Source of the DNA: Kiritimatiellia bacterium
GTDB lineage: Bacteria > Verrucomicrobiota > Kiritimatiellia > JAAZAB01
Reading direction: 5' to 3'
DNA: 47,485 nucleotides
Assembly: GCA_028715905.1 (NCBI GenBank)
Contig: JAQUQV010000012.1
Span: 1-47,485 of the forward strand
Below are positions 586 to 29,129 of the stretch, piece by piece (the first letter of the stretch is position 1; each line of letters opens with the position of its first letter). The notes under the pieces were generated by a model that saw only the letters and a list, made by a program, of their open reading frames with translations, did no database searches and was not told the origin of the DNA. The translations under genes and the position numbers were made by a program.

Positions 586-1531
586 TAAAAAGGGACGAAA
601 TATTATTGGCGGTCAACGGATTGAAGGTTTATTTCCGCACGCGCCATGAGCCGATTCGCGCCGTGGATGGCGTCAGTTTCAATGTAACCGACGGCGAAAC
701 CGCGGCGATCGTCGGCGAAAGCGGCAGCGGTAAAACCATAACCGCGCTGGCGCTGGCGCGCCTGCTTCCCGCGCCGGGTTATTTTGCCGGGGGGGAAATA
801 TTTTTTGCCGGCCGAAACATCGGCCGCCTGGATCAGGCCGGACTGCGGAAACTGCGCGGAGCCGAGATGTCATACGTTTTTCAGGATCCTTCCAGTTCTT
901 TGAACCCGGTCTTTACCGTCGGTTACCAGATTGCCGAGGCCCTGCGTTTGCACCGGCGCGGTTTGGATGTCCGCGAGGAGGCGCAACGCCTGCTGGATAT
1001 GGTCGGCATTGCCGACGCGCGCCATCGCCTGCGTTCCTATCCGCATGAATTGAGCGGCGGCATGCAGCAGCGTGTCATGATTGCCATGGCGTTGGCCTGC
1101 CGCCCGAAACTGCTCGTGGCCGACGAGCCCACCACCGCGCTGGATGTTACAGTCCAGGCGCAGATTCTTGACCTGCTGGCGCGCCTGCAGAAAGAGCTGG
1201 GCATGGCGGTTCTGCTGATCACCCATAACCTCGGCATTGTCGCCGGACTGGCGCGGCGCGTGAACGTCATGTATGCCGGCCGTATTATTGAACGGGGGCT
1301 GACGGCAGAGCTGTTGCGGGAACCCAAACATCCCTACACGCGCGGCTTGCTTTCGGCGGTGCCGCGCCTGCGCGCCGCCGTGAAACGGATGCCGGGCATT
1401 CCCGGAACGGTGCCCGACCCGTCCGCGCTTCCCACGGGCTGCAAATTTCATCCCCGTTGTCCGCTGGCCGGGGAAATCTGCCGGCAAAACGAGCCGGAGG
1501 AGGAAAATGTTTCGGAAACACACGCCGTAAA

Positions 1532-1550
<19 letters not shown>
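582..1550 (+). CDS. ABC transporter ATP-binding protein, OppD/DppD type
   Basis: A 322-residue ATPase of the dipeptide/oligopeptide (or oligosaccharide) importer family. Visible are Walker A 'GESGSGKT', the ABC signature 'LSGGMQQR', Walker B with D-loop '[13 protein letters not shown]', and a switch histidine in 'LLITHNLG'. The C-terminal cysteine-containing extension '[15 protein letters not shown]' is the oligo_HPY tail found in Opp/Dpp ATPases. The GTG start is chosen because it overlaps the upstream stop (GTGA). It would pair with the next ATPase to power an inner-membrane permease; permease and binding-protein genes are not in the window and may lie upstream. The substrate is not determinable from the ATPases. 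Confidence 0.93.
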
Positions 1551-2491
<941 letters not shown>

Positions 2492-2573: not shown

Positions 2574-2774
2574 ATGGCAACGAATTTACAACTTGATAAC
2601 CGGTTAATTCGGCAGGCGGTAAAACTTGGCGGTCACAGGACGAAAAAGGCGGCCGTAAATCAAGCATTAACAAACTATATCCATCATCTGCGACAGGGAA
2701 AAATTCTTGCTCTGTTTGGCGGAGTGGATATTGACCCTGGCTATGACTATAAACGGCAAAGGGCAAGGGGATGA
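2574..2774 (+). CDS. vapB: Type II antitoxin, VapB family
   Basis: A 66-residue protein beginning 'MATNLQLDNRLIRQAVKLGG', with the DNA-binding ribbon-helix-helix pattern and 'TKKAAVNQALTNYIHHLRQ' helix typical of VapB antitoxins (VapB_antitoxin family). The C-terminal 'FGGVDIDPGYDYKRQRARG' would thread into the toxin active site. The ATG at 2574 is preferred over a TTG at 2565, because GGAGGTG at 2557-2563 is correctly spaced for it and too close to the TTG. It overlaps the toxin gene by four bases (ATGA). It binds and neutralises the neighbouring PIN-domain RNase and probably represses the operon. Confidence 0.88.
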   Translation: MATNLQLDNRLIRQAVKLGGHRTKKAAVNQALTNYIHHLRQGKILALFGGVDIDPGYDYKRQRARG

Positions 2775-3241
2775 GAGTCCTGGTTGATACAAGCATCTGG
2801 TCGCTTGCTTTGCGCCGCACGGAACAGCACCGGTGTCCTGAGGCGCAGGAACTCCGCCAGCTTATTACGGAGCATCTGGTTGAGATCATGGGCCCCATCC
2901 GGCAGGAAATTCTTTCCGGAGTCAGGGAGCAATCCCAGTTTGAACGTCTTGAATCGCATCTCGCGGCTTTCCCGGATGTAAGTATTCAGACCGAAGACTA
3001 CATAACCGCGGCCAAATGCTTTAACCTGTGCCGGTCAAAAGGCATCCAAGGCTCAAATACGGATTTCCTGATTTGTTCTGTGACTGTAAGACGTGATTTT
3101 TCCATTTTCACGACCGATCAGGACTTTTCTCTTTTTGCCAGGTGTCTCCCGATAGTTCTGCATTCAGTCAGGAAGGAAGTTGGGCAACAGCGCGCCGTTT
3201 GGAAAGCAGGCCGGCTGGCTGAAAAGAAGCCCCGGAGATGA
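2771..3241 (+). CDS. vapC: Type II toxin, VapC-like PIN-domain RNase
   Basis: A 156-residue PIN-domain protein. The acidic metal site is visible: D6 in 'VLVDTSIW', E46 in 'PIRQEILSG', D98 in 'NTDFLIC', and D116/D118 in 'FTTDQDFS'. VapC toxins are Mg-dependent endoribonucleases that usually cleave tRNA or rRNA. VapC proteins are normally about 130-140 residues; this one runs on through 'KEVGQQRAVWKAGRLAEKKPRR'. Its last codons and stop (3239-3241) lie inside the second copy of the oppF 3' end, read in a different frame from oppF. The C-terminal tail is therefore probably acquired from host-gene DNA. It is co-transcribed with vapB. Confidence 0.9.
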   Translation: MRVLVDTSIWSLALRRTEQHRCPEAQELRQLITEHLVEIMGPIRQEILSGVREQSQFERLESHLAAFPDVSIQTEDYITAAKCFNLCRSKGIQGSNTDFLICSVTVRRDFSIFTTDQDFSLFARCLPIVLHSVRKEVGQQRAVWKAGRLAEKKPRR

Positions 3242-3281
3242 AAAAAGTGGCCGACGGCCACTTCAGCCGCTGTCATTTTGC
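3232..3281 (+). repeat. Direct repeat, copy B: displaced oppF 3' end downstream of VapBC
   Basis: Matches 2435-2484 at the end of oppF. Read in the oppF frame it encodes 'PEMKKVADGHFSRCHFAGD', close to the usual C-terminus of Opp/Dpp ATPases, but an in-frame TGA at 3220-3222 and the absence of an ATPase body show it is only a 3' remnant. It also contains the stop of vapC on the plus strand and the last codons and stop of the AraC-type gene on the minus strand. Confidence 0.8.
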
Positions 3282-4301: not shown

Positions 4302-4307
4302 AAAGAT

Positions 4308-4446
4308 AAATTCAAAGCATAGGAATTTCAATCTTGCCGCAAAAAAGCGCGCAATCAAGGTAGGAGCCGAACCCCTGTTCGGCGATGTATCGGAATCGCC
4401 GCATAGGGATGCGGCTCCTTCCATCGATCAAATGCAATTGCCGCCT
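4308..4446. repeat. REP/BIME-like dispersed repeat, copy 1
   Basis: About 140 bases that recur at 28951-29129, including the AT-rich left flank and the right flank 'CATCGATCAAAT'. The core is two inverted units. The forward unit (4360-4386) is GTAGGAGCC followed by the hairpin CCGAAC-CCCT-GTTCGG and GGCGAT. The reverse unit (4395-4421) read on the minus strand is GAAGGAGCC with hairpin CCGCAT-CCCT-ATGCGG and GGCGAT. A GTAG-type head plus an imperfect hairpin, arranged as an inverted pair, is the hallmark of REP/BIME elements mobilised by RAYT (Y1) transposases. No RAYT gene is in the window. A further GC hairpin, GCCGCC-TTT-GGCGGC, lies at 4440-4454. Confidence 0.8.
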
Positions 4447-25416: not shown

Positions 25417-25935
25417 TTACGGCGTCTCAAACGTGGTCCGGAGCACTGCTTTCTCGTTTTTGTTTTTCCATTCGCCCGCGGGCCCGATCCCCTTCGCCTT
25501 TGACTGCATCTCCACAAACGGGTGCGGCTCCAGCCAGATATAAGGATCCATCGGCGGCCCCTTGCTTTCCTCAATGCCGCCGATTGTTTCCCAGCCGGAG
25601 TCGTCATAATCCGGGGCGGACCAGTTGCCTTTCGGGGCGTAGGCGGATTTCCAGCGCGGCGAGGTGCAAATGTCTCCGGTGTGCGTGCGCAGGCAGGCCT
25701 GGGCCCACGAGGGATATTCGCGGTGCACCGTTTGCAGGGCGAGCGCGTGTTTCCCCGGCGGAAGCTGCAAGCCGAAAAACCGCATCCGTTCCGGCGCGCC
25801 CGTCTCGCCGACGAAGCGGCCGTCCAGGTAAACGCCGGTCCGCATGTTGCAATAAACGCCGAGGATGACGTTGGACGGGTTGCTGTTGTTCATCACGGAG
25901 ACCGGCGCGAAGGGGTCGTCTGGCGGCGCGCGGCG
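25417..25935 (-). pseudogene. Second, partial copy of the GH172 gene 3' end
   Basis: Reads as the C-terminal 150 or so residues of the GH172 protein ('NPSNVILGVYCNMRTGVYLD' to 'VLRTTFETP' and stop). Bases 25420-25889 match 26596-27065 with about nine differences and no gaps. The next 45 bases (25891-25935) match a more upstream part (from 27298) at only about 85%, so 232 bases of the complete gene are missing between them. In the correct frame it reads 'RAPPDDPFAPVSVM' fused to 'NNSNPSNVILG'. An ATG-initiated frame exists (25896), but with no signal peptide or catalytic domain it is best called a fragment. Its simple end 'FETP-stop' is probably the native GH172 terminus. Confidence 0.85.
25420..25889. 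repeat. 470-base direct repeat, copy B (after VapBC)
   Basis: Pairs with 26596-27065; constant offset of 1176 bases, no indels, about nine substitutions counted by eye (98% identity). The VapBC module lies between the copies. Confidence 0.9.
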
Positions 25936-26300
25936 GGCTTGAAGTTCACATCCAACATGCCGCGGAAATCTTTATCCTGTGTCCATAACACAGCTTTGCA
26001 CTGCCGGGCTGTTGCCAGAATCAAACTGTCAGCCATGGCGATTTTATGTTTGATGCTGATCAGGGCCGCGGAGAGAGCGATTGATTCGGTAATTTCTTCA
26101 ACCCGGCCTTTTTTCATTTGCGCAACGGCCTGTAATGCCCGGTCCTCGTCTGCGACCGTATTGACTTTTTTGAAGACCTCGTAGAGCGAAACCACCGAAA
26201 CCAGCAATGTGTCGGTTGCTTCAATAGGCGCGGCAAAATATTGCGCGTTCGGGCCTTCAAAAAAGTATTCAAGCCATGCGGACGTGTCCACCAGATTCAT
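25893..26300 (-). CDS. vapC: Type II toxin, VapC-like PIN-domain RNase
   Basis: A 135-residue PIN protein with the four-acid site: D5 in 'LVDTSAW', E41 in 'SLYEVFKK', D91 in 'IAMADSLILATA' and D109/D111 in 'TQDKDFRG'. The last 14 or so residues ('PAARRQTTPSRRSP') are encoded by DNA that in another frame is GH172 sequence, so the toxin frame runs into the second GH172 fragment, just as the first VapC here runs into an oppF remnant. It overlaps the antitoxin gene by four bases (ATGA). Confidence 0.92.
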   Translation of the reverse strand: MNLVDTSAWLEYFFEGPNAQYFAAPIEATDTLLVSVVSLYEVFKKVNTVADEDRALQAVAQMKKGRVEEITESIALSAALISIKHKIAMADSLILATARQCKAVLWTQDKDFRGMLDVNFKPAARRQTTPSRRSP

Positions 26301-26506
26301 TCGCGGTCTGCCTTTTCGCGTCTGAAACTCCGGTCATATTTACGAAGAAATCCGCGCGTGTTCTTTATGGGCCGCAATGTAACCATCTCAATCCGATCGT
26401 CAAATCCGATGACCTGCATCTGTTCGCCCGGGCTGATGCGCAGGCGCTCTCTTACCGGGCGCGGGATTACCACCTGATACTTGGGCGATACTGTTACAGT
26501 ATCCAT
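26297..26506 (-). CDS. vapB: Type II antitoxin, AbrB/MazE-fold VapB
   Basis: A 69-residue protein beginning 'MDTVTVSPKYQVVIPRPVRE', the swapped-hairpin AbrB DNA-binding fold, with 'ISPGEQMQVIGFDDRIEMVT' and a basic C-terminal tail ('FLRKYDRSFRREKADRE') that should contact the toxin. The ATG at 26506 follows AAAGGAGAACG; an upstream in-frame start at 26530 is rejected. It belongs to a different antitoxin fold from the VapB at 2574, so the two VapBC modules were acquired independently. Confidence 0.9.
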   Translation of the reverse strand: MDTVTVSPKYQVVIPRPVRERLRISPGEQMQVIGFDDRIEMVTLRPIKNTRGFLRKYDRSFRREKADRE

Positions 26507-26529
26507 ATCGTTCTCCTTTTTGTAAAACA

Positions 26530-26556
26530 ATTATCACAACGATACGGTTTGGTCAA
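26530..26556 (-). promoter_or_regulatory. Possible promoter of the second vapBC operon
   Basis: On the minus strand TTGACC (26551-26556) and GATAAT (26530-26535), 15 bases apart, the latter preceded by TGT as an extended -10. The spacer is short. TATC and GATA flank ACAAC at 26532-26544, a small inverted repeat that could be an antitoxin site. Confidence 0.35.
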
Positions 26557-26565
26557 TGCCGATTT

Positions 26566-28890
26566 TCAATTATTATGTCTCTGGCTTGAATTGAGCGGCG
26601 TCTCAAACGTGGTCCGGAGCACGGCTTTCTCGTTTTTGTTTTTCCATTCGCCCGCGGGCCCGATCCCCTTCGCCTTTGACTGCATCTCCACAAACGGGTG
26701 CGGCTCCAGCCAGATGTAGGGATCCATCGGCGGCCCCTTGCTTTCCTCAATGCCGCCGATTGTTTCCCAGCCGGAGTCGTCATAACCCGGGGCGGACCAG
26801 TTGCCTTTCGGGGCGTAGGCGGATTTCCAGCGCGGCGAGGTGCAAATGTCTCCGGCGTGCGTGCGCAGGCAGGCCTGGGCCCACGAGGGATATTCGCGGT
26901 GCACCGTTTGCAGGGCGAGCGCATGTTTTCCCGGCGGAAGCTGCAAGCCGAAAAACCGCATCCGTTCCGGCGCGCCCGCCTCGCCGACGAAGCGGCCGTC
27001 CAGGTAAACGCCGGTCCGCATGTTGCAATAAACGCCGAGGATGACGTTGGACGGGCTGCTGTTGTGCCACAATATCATTTCCGCCATCCGCCGCGCCATC
27101 TCGTTCGTTTCCGCGGCGCGGAATTTTTCGTATTGCCCGCGCGCCGCGGCAAATCCTTTCTCCCTTTCTTCATAACCGATCCGTCGCAGGCGCAGCACGG
27201 AAGCGAAGGGATAATCCGGGTGTTTTTCCAGGAAGGCGTCAATGTGGTCAACCGCGCCGTTGAAATCGCCCAGCCGCTCAAAATCGTTCAGCGCCATCAT
27301 CACGGAAACCGGCGCGAACGGATCATCCGGCGGCGCCCGCGGTATGTTCGCGGAAATATCGGAATCGGCCCGGGCCGGCGCCGATAAATAATAAAAAGAA
27401 ACGCTCTCCATGTATCCGCGGCTGGCGTGGCCGGGGCCGCGCTCAAATTCAAACGCGGCCGACCTTGCAAATTCAACCGGGTCGGTCTGGTGGACGCGGT
27501 ATTGAATGGTTGTGAAAAAGGCTTTCAGCGGCAGACCGTAAAACGGGCGGATCAGGGCATTGCCGTAATACCAGCCCGCATTGAAGTAATCCTCCAGTCC
27601 CGTGCCGTGCCAGCCCGGGAACGGCTCGTTGTCAACCCGGATTGTTTCGTCGCCTTCCAGAATCCACCAGCTTTGATCCAGGCTGGTTACCGCCAGGATG
27701 CAGCCCGCAACTTTTCCGCGTCCCTGCGTTTTGAGGATACGATGGGGTTTCCCGGCGTTCTGCGGGAAGCTTCTTGTCCAGCCAGAATGAAAATAGCCCC
27801 AGGCGTTGGTCCAAACCGGCATTTTTTCCAGCGCGCAGGACGCCTGGAACGAGAGCGGGATGTCCATCTCATTCCGGATTTCAATCCGCGCCGAATCGGC
27901 AAACGGCATCGGAAAACGGGAGTAAAATGTTTGATTGCTGGCGCCGAAATAAGCGCTTTGGAACCTCCGCATCTGCCAGAAGCTGCCGAAAAAATTGCCG
28001 AGCGGAACTTCCACGCTCGGGGCTTCGTTTTTGTCCCAATACATGCGCAGGACTGTTTTGAACATTATTTCGTTGCGTTTCAGAACATTGGTAATTGCGT
28101 TCGCGTCCGGTGTCAGGCGCAGTTCCCGGATTACGGCCGGCCCGGACAGGCGAATAATGTTGACTGACTGCCCGGCCGGGATGGTAACCGCGTTTGTCTC
28201 CGCGCGCAGGTTTTGCGGCAGAAGGGGGTCTTGCGGCAGTTGTTTAAGCGCCGTTCCGGCCTGGATTAACGCGTTGCTCTCCGCCGGCGAGAGAATTTTC
28301 GGAAAACTTTCAACCCGTGTGTGTTTCGGAAGGGGACAATAATTGATCTGGAAGAATATCTTTGGGTCTCCGTTCGGCTTGTAACCGCCTTCTTTGGTCG
28401 TAATCACCAGTCGTTTCCGGTAGGGCAGGGGCGCAAAAGAATACCAGCAGAAAGGTTCATAGGCCGCCAGCGGAGGCTGAAAAGGCGCTTTCCCGCCGCA
28501 AAATTCTTCCAAGGTGGCGTCAATCCGCGGCGTTCTTTCATTGTCAAAATAAAAACGCAGCGGATATTTGCCGTTTTCGGCGCCGGTGAACCAGAAACGC
28601 GAGACATAACCCGGGCCTTTTAAATCCGCCATGACCGCCCAACCGTCCTTTTCTTTCCGCAGAAAATTGTTGTAGTCGGTGTTTCCGCCGGAACGGTCAA
28701 ACGAGGTTGTTATCTGTGTGCCGGGTGAATCCAGCCGGGCCGGGCGGCCGAGATCGCAGATTTCGCGCGCCAGAGAGGTCAAATTCACCTGCGGGGCGGC
28801 GTGTTTTTCCGGGGCGCACCCCTGGATGAAAAGCAAGAGCGCCGAAAGTAACGCTCCCGGAATGAAAATCAATTTCATTTTGAGGCTCAT
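26566..28890 (-). CDS. GH172 (DUF2961) lipoprotein glycoside hydrolase
   Basis: A 774-residue protein with a lipoprotein signal peptide (lipobox 'FIQGC', C25). The DUF2961 domain has 'GPGYVSRFWFTGAENG', 'FYFDNERTPRIDATLEEFCG' and the hallmark 'GWHGTGLEDYFNAGWYYG' (about 426-443). Characterised GH172 enzymes act on fructofuranoside or arabinofuranoside linkages. A helical repeat-like stretch follows ('DDPFAPVSVMMALNDFERLG'), then a C-terminal beta-sandwich region ('VYCNMRTGVYLDGRFVGE'). The last nine residues ('LNSSQRHNN') appear foreign: the repeat copy ends 'FETP-stop', whereas here the identity breaks one codon before that stop and the frame runs on toward the VapBC leader. The enzyme should be anchored on the cell envelope. 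Confidence 0.9.
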   Translation of the reverse strand: MSLKMKLIFIPGALLSALLLFIQGCAPEKHAAPQVNLTSLAREICDLGRPARLDSPGTQITTSFDRSGGNTDYNNFLRKEKDGWAVMADLKGPGYVSRFWFTGAENGKYPLRFYFDNERTPRIDATLEEFCGGKAPFQPPLAAYEPFCWYSFAPLPYRKRLVITTKEGGYKPNGDPKIFFQINYCPLPKHTRVESFPKILSPAESNALIQAGTALKQLPQDPLLPQNLRAETNAVTIPAGQSVNIIRLSGPAVIRELRLTPDANAITNVLKRNEIMFKTVLRMYWDKNEAPSVEVPLGNFFGSFWQMRRFQSAYFGASNQTFYSRFPMPFADSARIEIRNEMDIPLSFQASCALEKMPVWTNAWGYFHSGWTRSFPQNAGKPHRILKTQGRGKVAGCILAVTSLDQSWWILEGDETIRVDNEPFPGWHGTGLEDYFNAGWYYGNALIRPFYGLPLKAFFTTIQYRVHQTDPVEFARSAAFEFERGPGHASRGYMESVSFYYLSAPARADSDISANIPRAPPDDPFAPVSVMMALNDFERLGDFNGAVDHIDAFLEKHPDYPFASVLRLRRIGYEEREKGFAAARGQYEKFRAAETNEMARRMAEMILWHNSSPSNVILGVYCNMRTGVYLDGRFVGEAGAPERMRFFGLQLPPGKHALALQTVHREYPSWAQACLRTHAGDICTSPRWKSAYAPKGNWSAPGYDDSGWETIGGIEESKGPPMDPYIWLEPHPFVEMQSKAKGIGPAGEWKNKNEKAVLRTTFETPLNSSQRHNN
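26596..27065. repeat. 470-base direct repeat, copy A (3' end of complete GH172 gene)
   Basis: Pairs with 25420-25889. The identity ends on the left exactly at the last sense codon of GH172 and on the right at 27065, inside the gene. Confidence 0.9.
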
Positions 28891-28950
28891 GGATTAAATC
28901 GTTCCGCCGAGACGCATGGCGGTTTTGTAAAACTTTTATCACTCAGGGCT

Positions 28951-29129
28951 AAATTCAACATAAGAATTTCAATTTTGCCGCAAAAAAAGCGTGAAATTAA
29001 GGTAGGAGCCGGCCCCCCTGTCCGGCGATGCATGTTTTGTCGCCCGGAATCGCCGCATAGGGATGCGGATCGCCCGGAATCGCCGCATAGGGATGCGGCT
29101 CCTACATCGATCAAATACACTTACCGCCT
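28951..29129. repeat. REP/BIME-like dispersed repeat, copy 2, with internal tandem duplication
   Basis: Same element as 4308-4446. Forward unit 29002-29029: GTAGGAGCC, hairpin arms CCGG/CCGG around a C-rich loop, then GGCGAT. Reverse unit 29079-29105 reads GTAGGAGCC and hairpin CCGCAT-CCCT-ATGCGG on the minus strand. Between them a 30-base unit is tandemly duplicated (29041-29070 and 29071-29100, one difference), which copy 1 lacks. The flanks 'AAATTCAA...AATTTCAAT.TTGCCGCAAAAAA' and 'CATCGATCAAAT' are also shared. It fills most of the gap between the GH172 gene and the YfhO-like C-terminal half. Confidence 0.85.

Follow-up and report, generated by a model that had tools for sequence, protein, structure and literature searches.

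Toxin-antitoxin modules are called exceptionally mobile, but how a module of just two genes gets into a chromosome usually goes unexplained. The locus described here raises this question, as a VapBC pair stands in it with a complete GH172 gene on one side and a repeat of that gene's 3' end on the other. The window, that is the whole stretch of DNA analysed (47,485 nucleotides), is an entire contig (C12) of a Kiritimatiellia bacterium whose 2.67-Mb genome lies in 141 contigs. Read along the minus strand, the order is complete GH172 gene, 89 bp, vapB, vapC and second GH172 tail, with the following features:

26566..28890, minus strand: complete gene of a GH172-type lipoprotein, DUF2961 (PF11175), 774 aa, the final nine residues non-native
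27297..27342, minus strand: upstream portion of the duplicated region, in the complete GH172 gene
27066..27296, minus strand: 231-nt (77-codon) stretch of the complete GH172 gene, absent from the tail copy
26596..27065, minus strand: 470-bp duplicated segment, copy within the complete GH172 gene
26507..26595, minus strand: 89-bp stretch from the first copy to the vapB start codon, in which reading of the sequence shows a promoter-like pair (TTGACC/TAATTG) followed in the list by a ribosome-binding site
26297..26506, minus strand: vapB, AbrB/MazE-type antitoxin (PF04014); the ORF is open from 26530 and its likely start is the ATG at 26506
25893..26300, minus strand: vapC, 135-aa toxin with a PIN domain (PF01850); host-gene DNA supplies its C-terminus and stop codon
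25890..25936, minus strand: diverged (85%) copy of the upstream portion, also encoding the out-of-frame VapC end
25420..25889, minus strand: 470-bp duplicated segment, second copy, 3' of vapC, 98.1% identity
25417..25896, minus strand: tail ORF of the partial GH172 copy, 159 aa, to the native stop

Looking at the inserted genes, the toxin scores 63.3 bits against PF01850 (curated cut-off 23.6), and the antitoxin gene (PF04014) lies directly upstream of vapC with a 4-nt overlap. Judged by this PIN toxin and the overlapping antitoxin gene, the pair is a predicted VapBC type II toxin-antitoxin module. Like other type II VapBC modules it has a PIN-domain toxin, an overlapping upstream antitoxin gene and its own promoter; unlike the typical VapBC entry, its antitoxin is AbrB/MazE-like and the C-terminus of the predicted toxin comes from the target gene. 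VapC is 135 residues long as compared with a family median of 125, and host DNA in another reading frame encodes about the last 14 of these. In this VapBC family the sequence preceding vapB is conserved only from about −60 onwards, and 89 bp separate the first GH172 copy from the start of vapB; what lies between the copies (89 bp, vapB and vapC) is a nearly minimal unit. No transposase ORF was found between the GH172 copies, no inverted repeats at the unit ends in the five cases examined, and, by reading, no attC-like palindrome 3' of VapC in the window. As to a phage origin, a DNA search among phages gave no match.

The host gene product scores 203.5 bits to PF11175 (DUF2961), over the cut-off. 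The two copies of its 3' end match over 470 bp with 9 mismatches and no gaps (98.1%), and the BLAST E-value of 0 excludes a chance match. The last sense codon is where identity starts; in the tail copy the end reads RTTFETP-stop, with the native stop at 25417-25419, and the complete gene continues past this point for nine residues (LNSSQRHNN) to a stop at 26566. The nine differences comprise five synonymous and four nonsynonymous changes, the latter being, from full gene to tail, S612N, A638T, A679T and G702D. An earlier note, made from the letters of this DNA, had described the 470-base duplication around VapBC, its start at the last sense codon, the loss of the native stop from the complete gene, the FETP-stop end of the partial copy and the out-of-frame run of VapC into host DNA, and all of these hold. 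It had also seen a far part about 85% similar and lacking 232 bases. The similarity is as stated and extends over 47 bp only, past a gap of 231 nt, which makes exactly 77 codons.

As the contig belongs to a metagenome-assembled genome fragmented into 141 contigs, strain variants or an excised circle could have been misjoined across the 470-bp repeat. We consider such an artefact highly improbable: the longest identical run between the copies does not exceed 92 bases, so that reads of at least 100 bases could separate them, the reading frames are coherent, and G178 and G174, which were assembled separately, share an analogous structure at 96% identity. At the junction between toxin and tail, the vapC stop and the first codon of the tail ORF, an ATG, share bases (TGATG). 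Coupled translation could thus give a candidate GH172 tail protein of about 158-159 residues as a third operon product.

A second VapBC module of the window was compared with this locus. Its features are:

1457..2491, plus strand: host gene of module 1, oligopeptide ABC ATPase, DppF/OppF-type (PF00005, PF08352)
2435..2484, plus strand: host-gene end, first copy
2574..2774, plus strand: module 1 vapB (PF09957)
2771..3241, plus strand: module 1 vapC (PF01850), terminating within the second copy
3232..3281, plus strand: host-gene end, second copy, 84%

Here VapBC is flanked by a 50-bp, 84% repeat of the DppF/OppF-type gene end. The anatomy is the same as that of the GH172 module on a smaller scale, and module 1 also has no attC-like site. 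Elsewhere in the window, the non-coding stretches 4307-4446 and 28950-29129 have segments of 83 bp (86%) and 56 bp (91%) in common; a tandem 30-bp repeat at 29040-29098 lies within this dispersed intergenic repeat.

We then looked for this scar at PIN modules across the class, using 46 homologues of the window VapC from 346 genomes and 80 further PIN loci from 47 relatives, with acetyltransferase (GNAT) loci (n=68) and random intervals (n=400) as controls. A direct repeat hugging both edges was seen at 9 of 123 other PIN loci, at none of the 68 GNAT loci and at none of the 400 random intervals (p = 1.7e-6 against random intervals, p = 0.028 against GNAT). The contrast is thus strong against random intervals and weaker against the GNAT control family, and because the geometry of this tight test was fixed only after a first survey had been viewed, the p values are indicative. 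When an attC case (see below) was excluded, 8 of 123 loci remained (p = 8e-6); the four clean loci alone (4/123 against 0/400 random intervals) gave p = 0.003. The majority of the PIN modules surveyed are without a tight flanking repeat, and the other four PIN hits in the window's own genome had no repeat hugging both edges.

The clean duplications are L112, L229, L265 and L290. In the clean cases besides the window the duplication measures 64-106 bp, as against about 747 bp in the window, which is far longer. At L265 (G003) the PIN module is flanked on both sides by the 5' end of an epimerase-like gene (1686-1748 and 2689-2751), and the downstream copy seems broken; as this repeat is a 5' gene fragment with 84% identity, it could alternatively be a paralogue remnant. 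Some candidates were not retained: the repeat at L119 is an attC-like cassette end and was rejected as a target duplication, L107, L222, L263 and L266 have more repeat copies nearby and were set aside as ambiguous, and the L093/L042 repeat is a dispersed non-coding sequence.

Empty sites were found at two of the four clean PIN loci (L112 and L229), both of them outside the window's GH172 locus. At L112 (G178, with the same insertion in G174) VapBC is flanked by 71-bp copies of a gene end that are 93% identical, and the congeners G175, G176 and G177 have a single copy of the gene end and no VapBC. An adjacent sulfatase gene is also missing in G175 and G177, meaning that there was more than one event at this site. 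At L229 (G015) a PIN module stands between convergent genes, each of which has a 3' end of its own owing to a 64-bp, 92% duplication. VapBC is absent from this site in G307, where the 3' ends of the host gene and the convergent glycosyltransferase gene overlap, and in G308, where the two genes adjoin. Most simply, the L229 duplication arose together with the insertion.

The origin of the GH172 tail itself had been left between insertion and a second paralogue plus gene conversion. A search of the window's own genome for GH172 returned the full gene and the tail, and nothing further. The 77-residue stretch missing from the tail copy is kept in 13 of 13 close GH172 homologues aligned; the nearest GH172 homologue is 51% identical to the window gene. 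Single-copy status and retention of the 77 residues make a decayed paralogue unlikely, and a second paralogue is not supported; the retention also argues that the tail copy underwent an in-frame deletion. On sequence comparison, the tail copy would not derive from any GH172 variant gene known in this analysis. One could still suppose that a tandem GH172 pair came first, that VapBC inserted between its members, and that the second gene decayed to a tail whose similarity was kept up by gene conversion. Such a course would suit the decay of the tail copy (the 231-nt deletion) and its signs of homogenisation. It is nevertheless improbable, for the genome has no second GH172 gene, no spacer separates the module from the last sense codon of one copy or from the break point of the other, the same anatomy is seen at module 1 with a 50-bp tail, and the two empty sites elsewhere hold a single copy.

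Gene conversion between the GH172 copies is plausible, and this part of the earlier proposal stands. The copies differ at 6 of 47 positions in the upstream part versus 9 of 470 in the main block (Fisher p = 0.001). Such a difference fits later homogenisation of the block still alignable. It would also fit the integration of a circular DNA in which VapBC was joined to the diverged GH172 tail of a related strain: a single crossover within the 470 bp would give the same hybrid outcome (full gene, VapBC, partial tail), and would explain, with no need of later homogenisation, why 470 bp are highly identical, why the adjoining 47 bp are less so and why an internal stretch is deleted. We regard this explanation as rather unlikely, since it requires an earlier insertion of like anatomy elsewhere, so that the question is only moved, and leaves the duplications at unrelated genes of other genomes unexplained.

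Taken together, these results make it likely that VapBC inserted at the 3' end of GH172 with duplication of the target, followed by decay and homogenisation of the tail. This insertion, which the earlier note had proposed, is supported by the anatomy of the locus, by GH172 being single-copy elsewhere, by the recurrent scar at other PIN modules of the class and by the single-copy empty sites at two of these. A nearly naked VapBC unit (its own promoter, vapB, and vapC to about codon 121) would have entered the 3' end of GH172, and about 747 bp of the target would have been duplicated on either side of it. The upstream copy would then complete the GH172 gene, and the downstream copy would bear the native stop and the native downstream DNA. 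The duplication may have been made during the insertion itself, either by a staggered break and fill-in or by a template switch to a point upstream of the break. An in-frame loss of 231 nt from the tail copy would have come later, as would homogenisation of the 470-bp block, still alignable, with the complete gene. Insertions in which the host genes stay intact may be favoured by selection. If the direct repeats recombined, vapBC would be deleted and the cell would be poisoned once the labile antitoxin was lost; such recombination would be counter-selected because the antitoxin gene is removed, and the module may in this way help to hold the duplication in place.

To our knowledge, all reported cases of insertion with long target duplication carry a restriction-modification payload, and as the payload here is VapBC we class the event as a variant of a known insertion pattern. 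In the literature searched we found no report of such insertion for toxin-antitoxin modules. Three papers (PMC3874152, PMC1643837, PMC3031569, all citing Nobusato et al. 2000 Gene 259:99) describe insertion with long, variable target duplication for restriction-modification genes, and Furuta et al. 2010, as summarised in PMC3874152 and PMC1643837, also treat it. Going by these descriptions, both systems have a selfish addictive gene pair, no transposase and a position between long, variable direct repeats of the target, and the target of the restriction-modification genes is single-copy in strains without the insert. The present case differs in its payload, which is a toxin-antitoxin module (type II, about 0.6 kb), in the bacterial class, and in resting on between-species and not on strain evidence. 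Makarova et al. 2009 (PMC2701414) emphasise the mobility of toxin-antitoxin systems in a text that contains neither 'target site' nor 'direct repeat', and for Sulfolobus islandicus degenerate IS elements on the flanks were given as the cause (PMC3718332).

Integron toxin-antitoxin cassettes are likewise minimal units of a promoter and two genes; the window modules differ from them in lacking any attC-like site, and a duplication of hundreds of target bases does not result from cassette integration. Within the VapC family, the end of vapC with about 25 bp forms an attC-like palindrome at L110, L115, L118, L119, L121 and L122 (−20 kcal/mol, z = −4.1 at L115), the palindrome at the VapC end being common to six genomes in the L119 subclade. 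The VapBC pairs of this subclade are thus probably integron gene cassettes, and such members of the family are a possible source of minimal units. In Escherichia coli, ccdAB at folA-apaH is also a minimal toxin-antitoxin unit exactly at a gene 3' end, with an empty site in K-12; unlike the window module it replaced about 70 bp without duplication, meaning that target duplication is not universal for toxin-antitoxin modules. The Leptospira and Haematobacter plasmid relatives have no flanking repeats. An AbrB-PIN module whose VapC is 55% identical is found on Leptospira plasmids (including NZ_CP092659 and NZ_CP043889), where these modules neighbour other toxin-antitoxin pairs and ParB genes.

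A broader and tentative proposal is that toxin-antitoxin operons of this class may move as defined minimal units, from promoter to toxin stop, by a dedicated mechanism that would leave long, variable target duplications, with their own addiction blocking erasure of the scar. Altogether, the recurrent scar and the empty sites point to one entry route, without an obvious transposase, that links toxin-antitoxin modules to restriction-modification genes. They also give predictions that can be tested: the moving unit should be a defined one, duplication of the target should save the host genes, and addiction should prevent collapse of the repeats.
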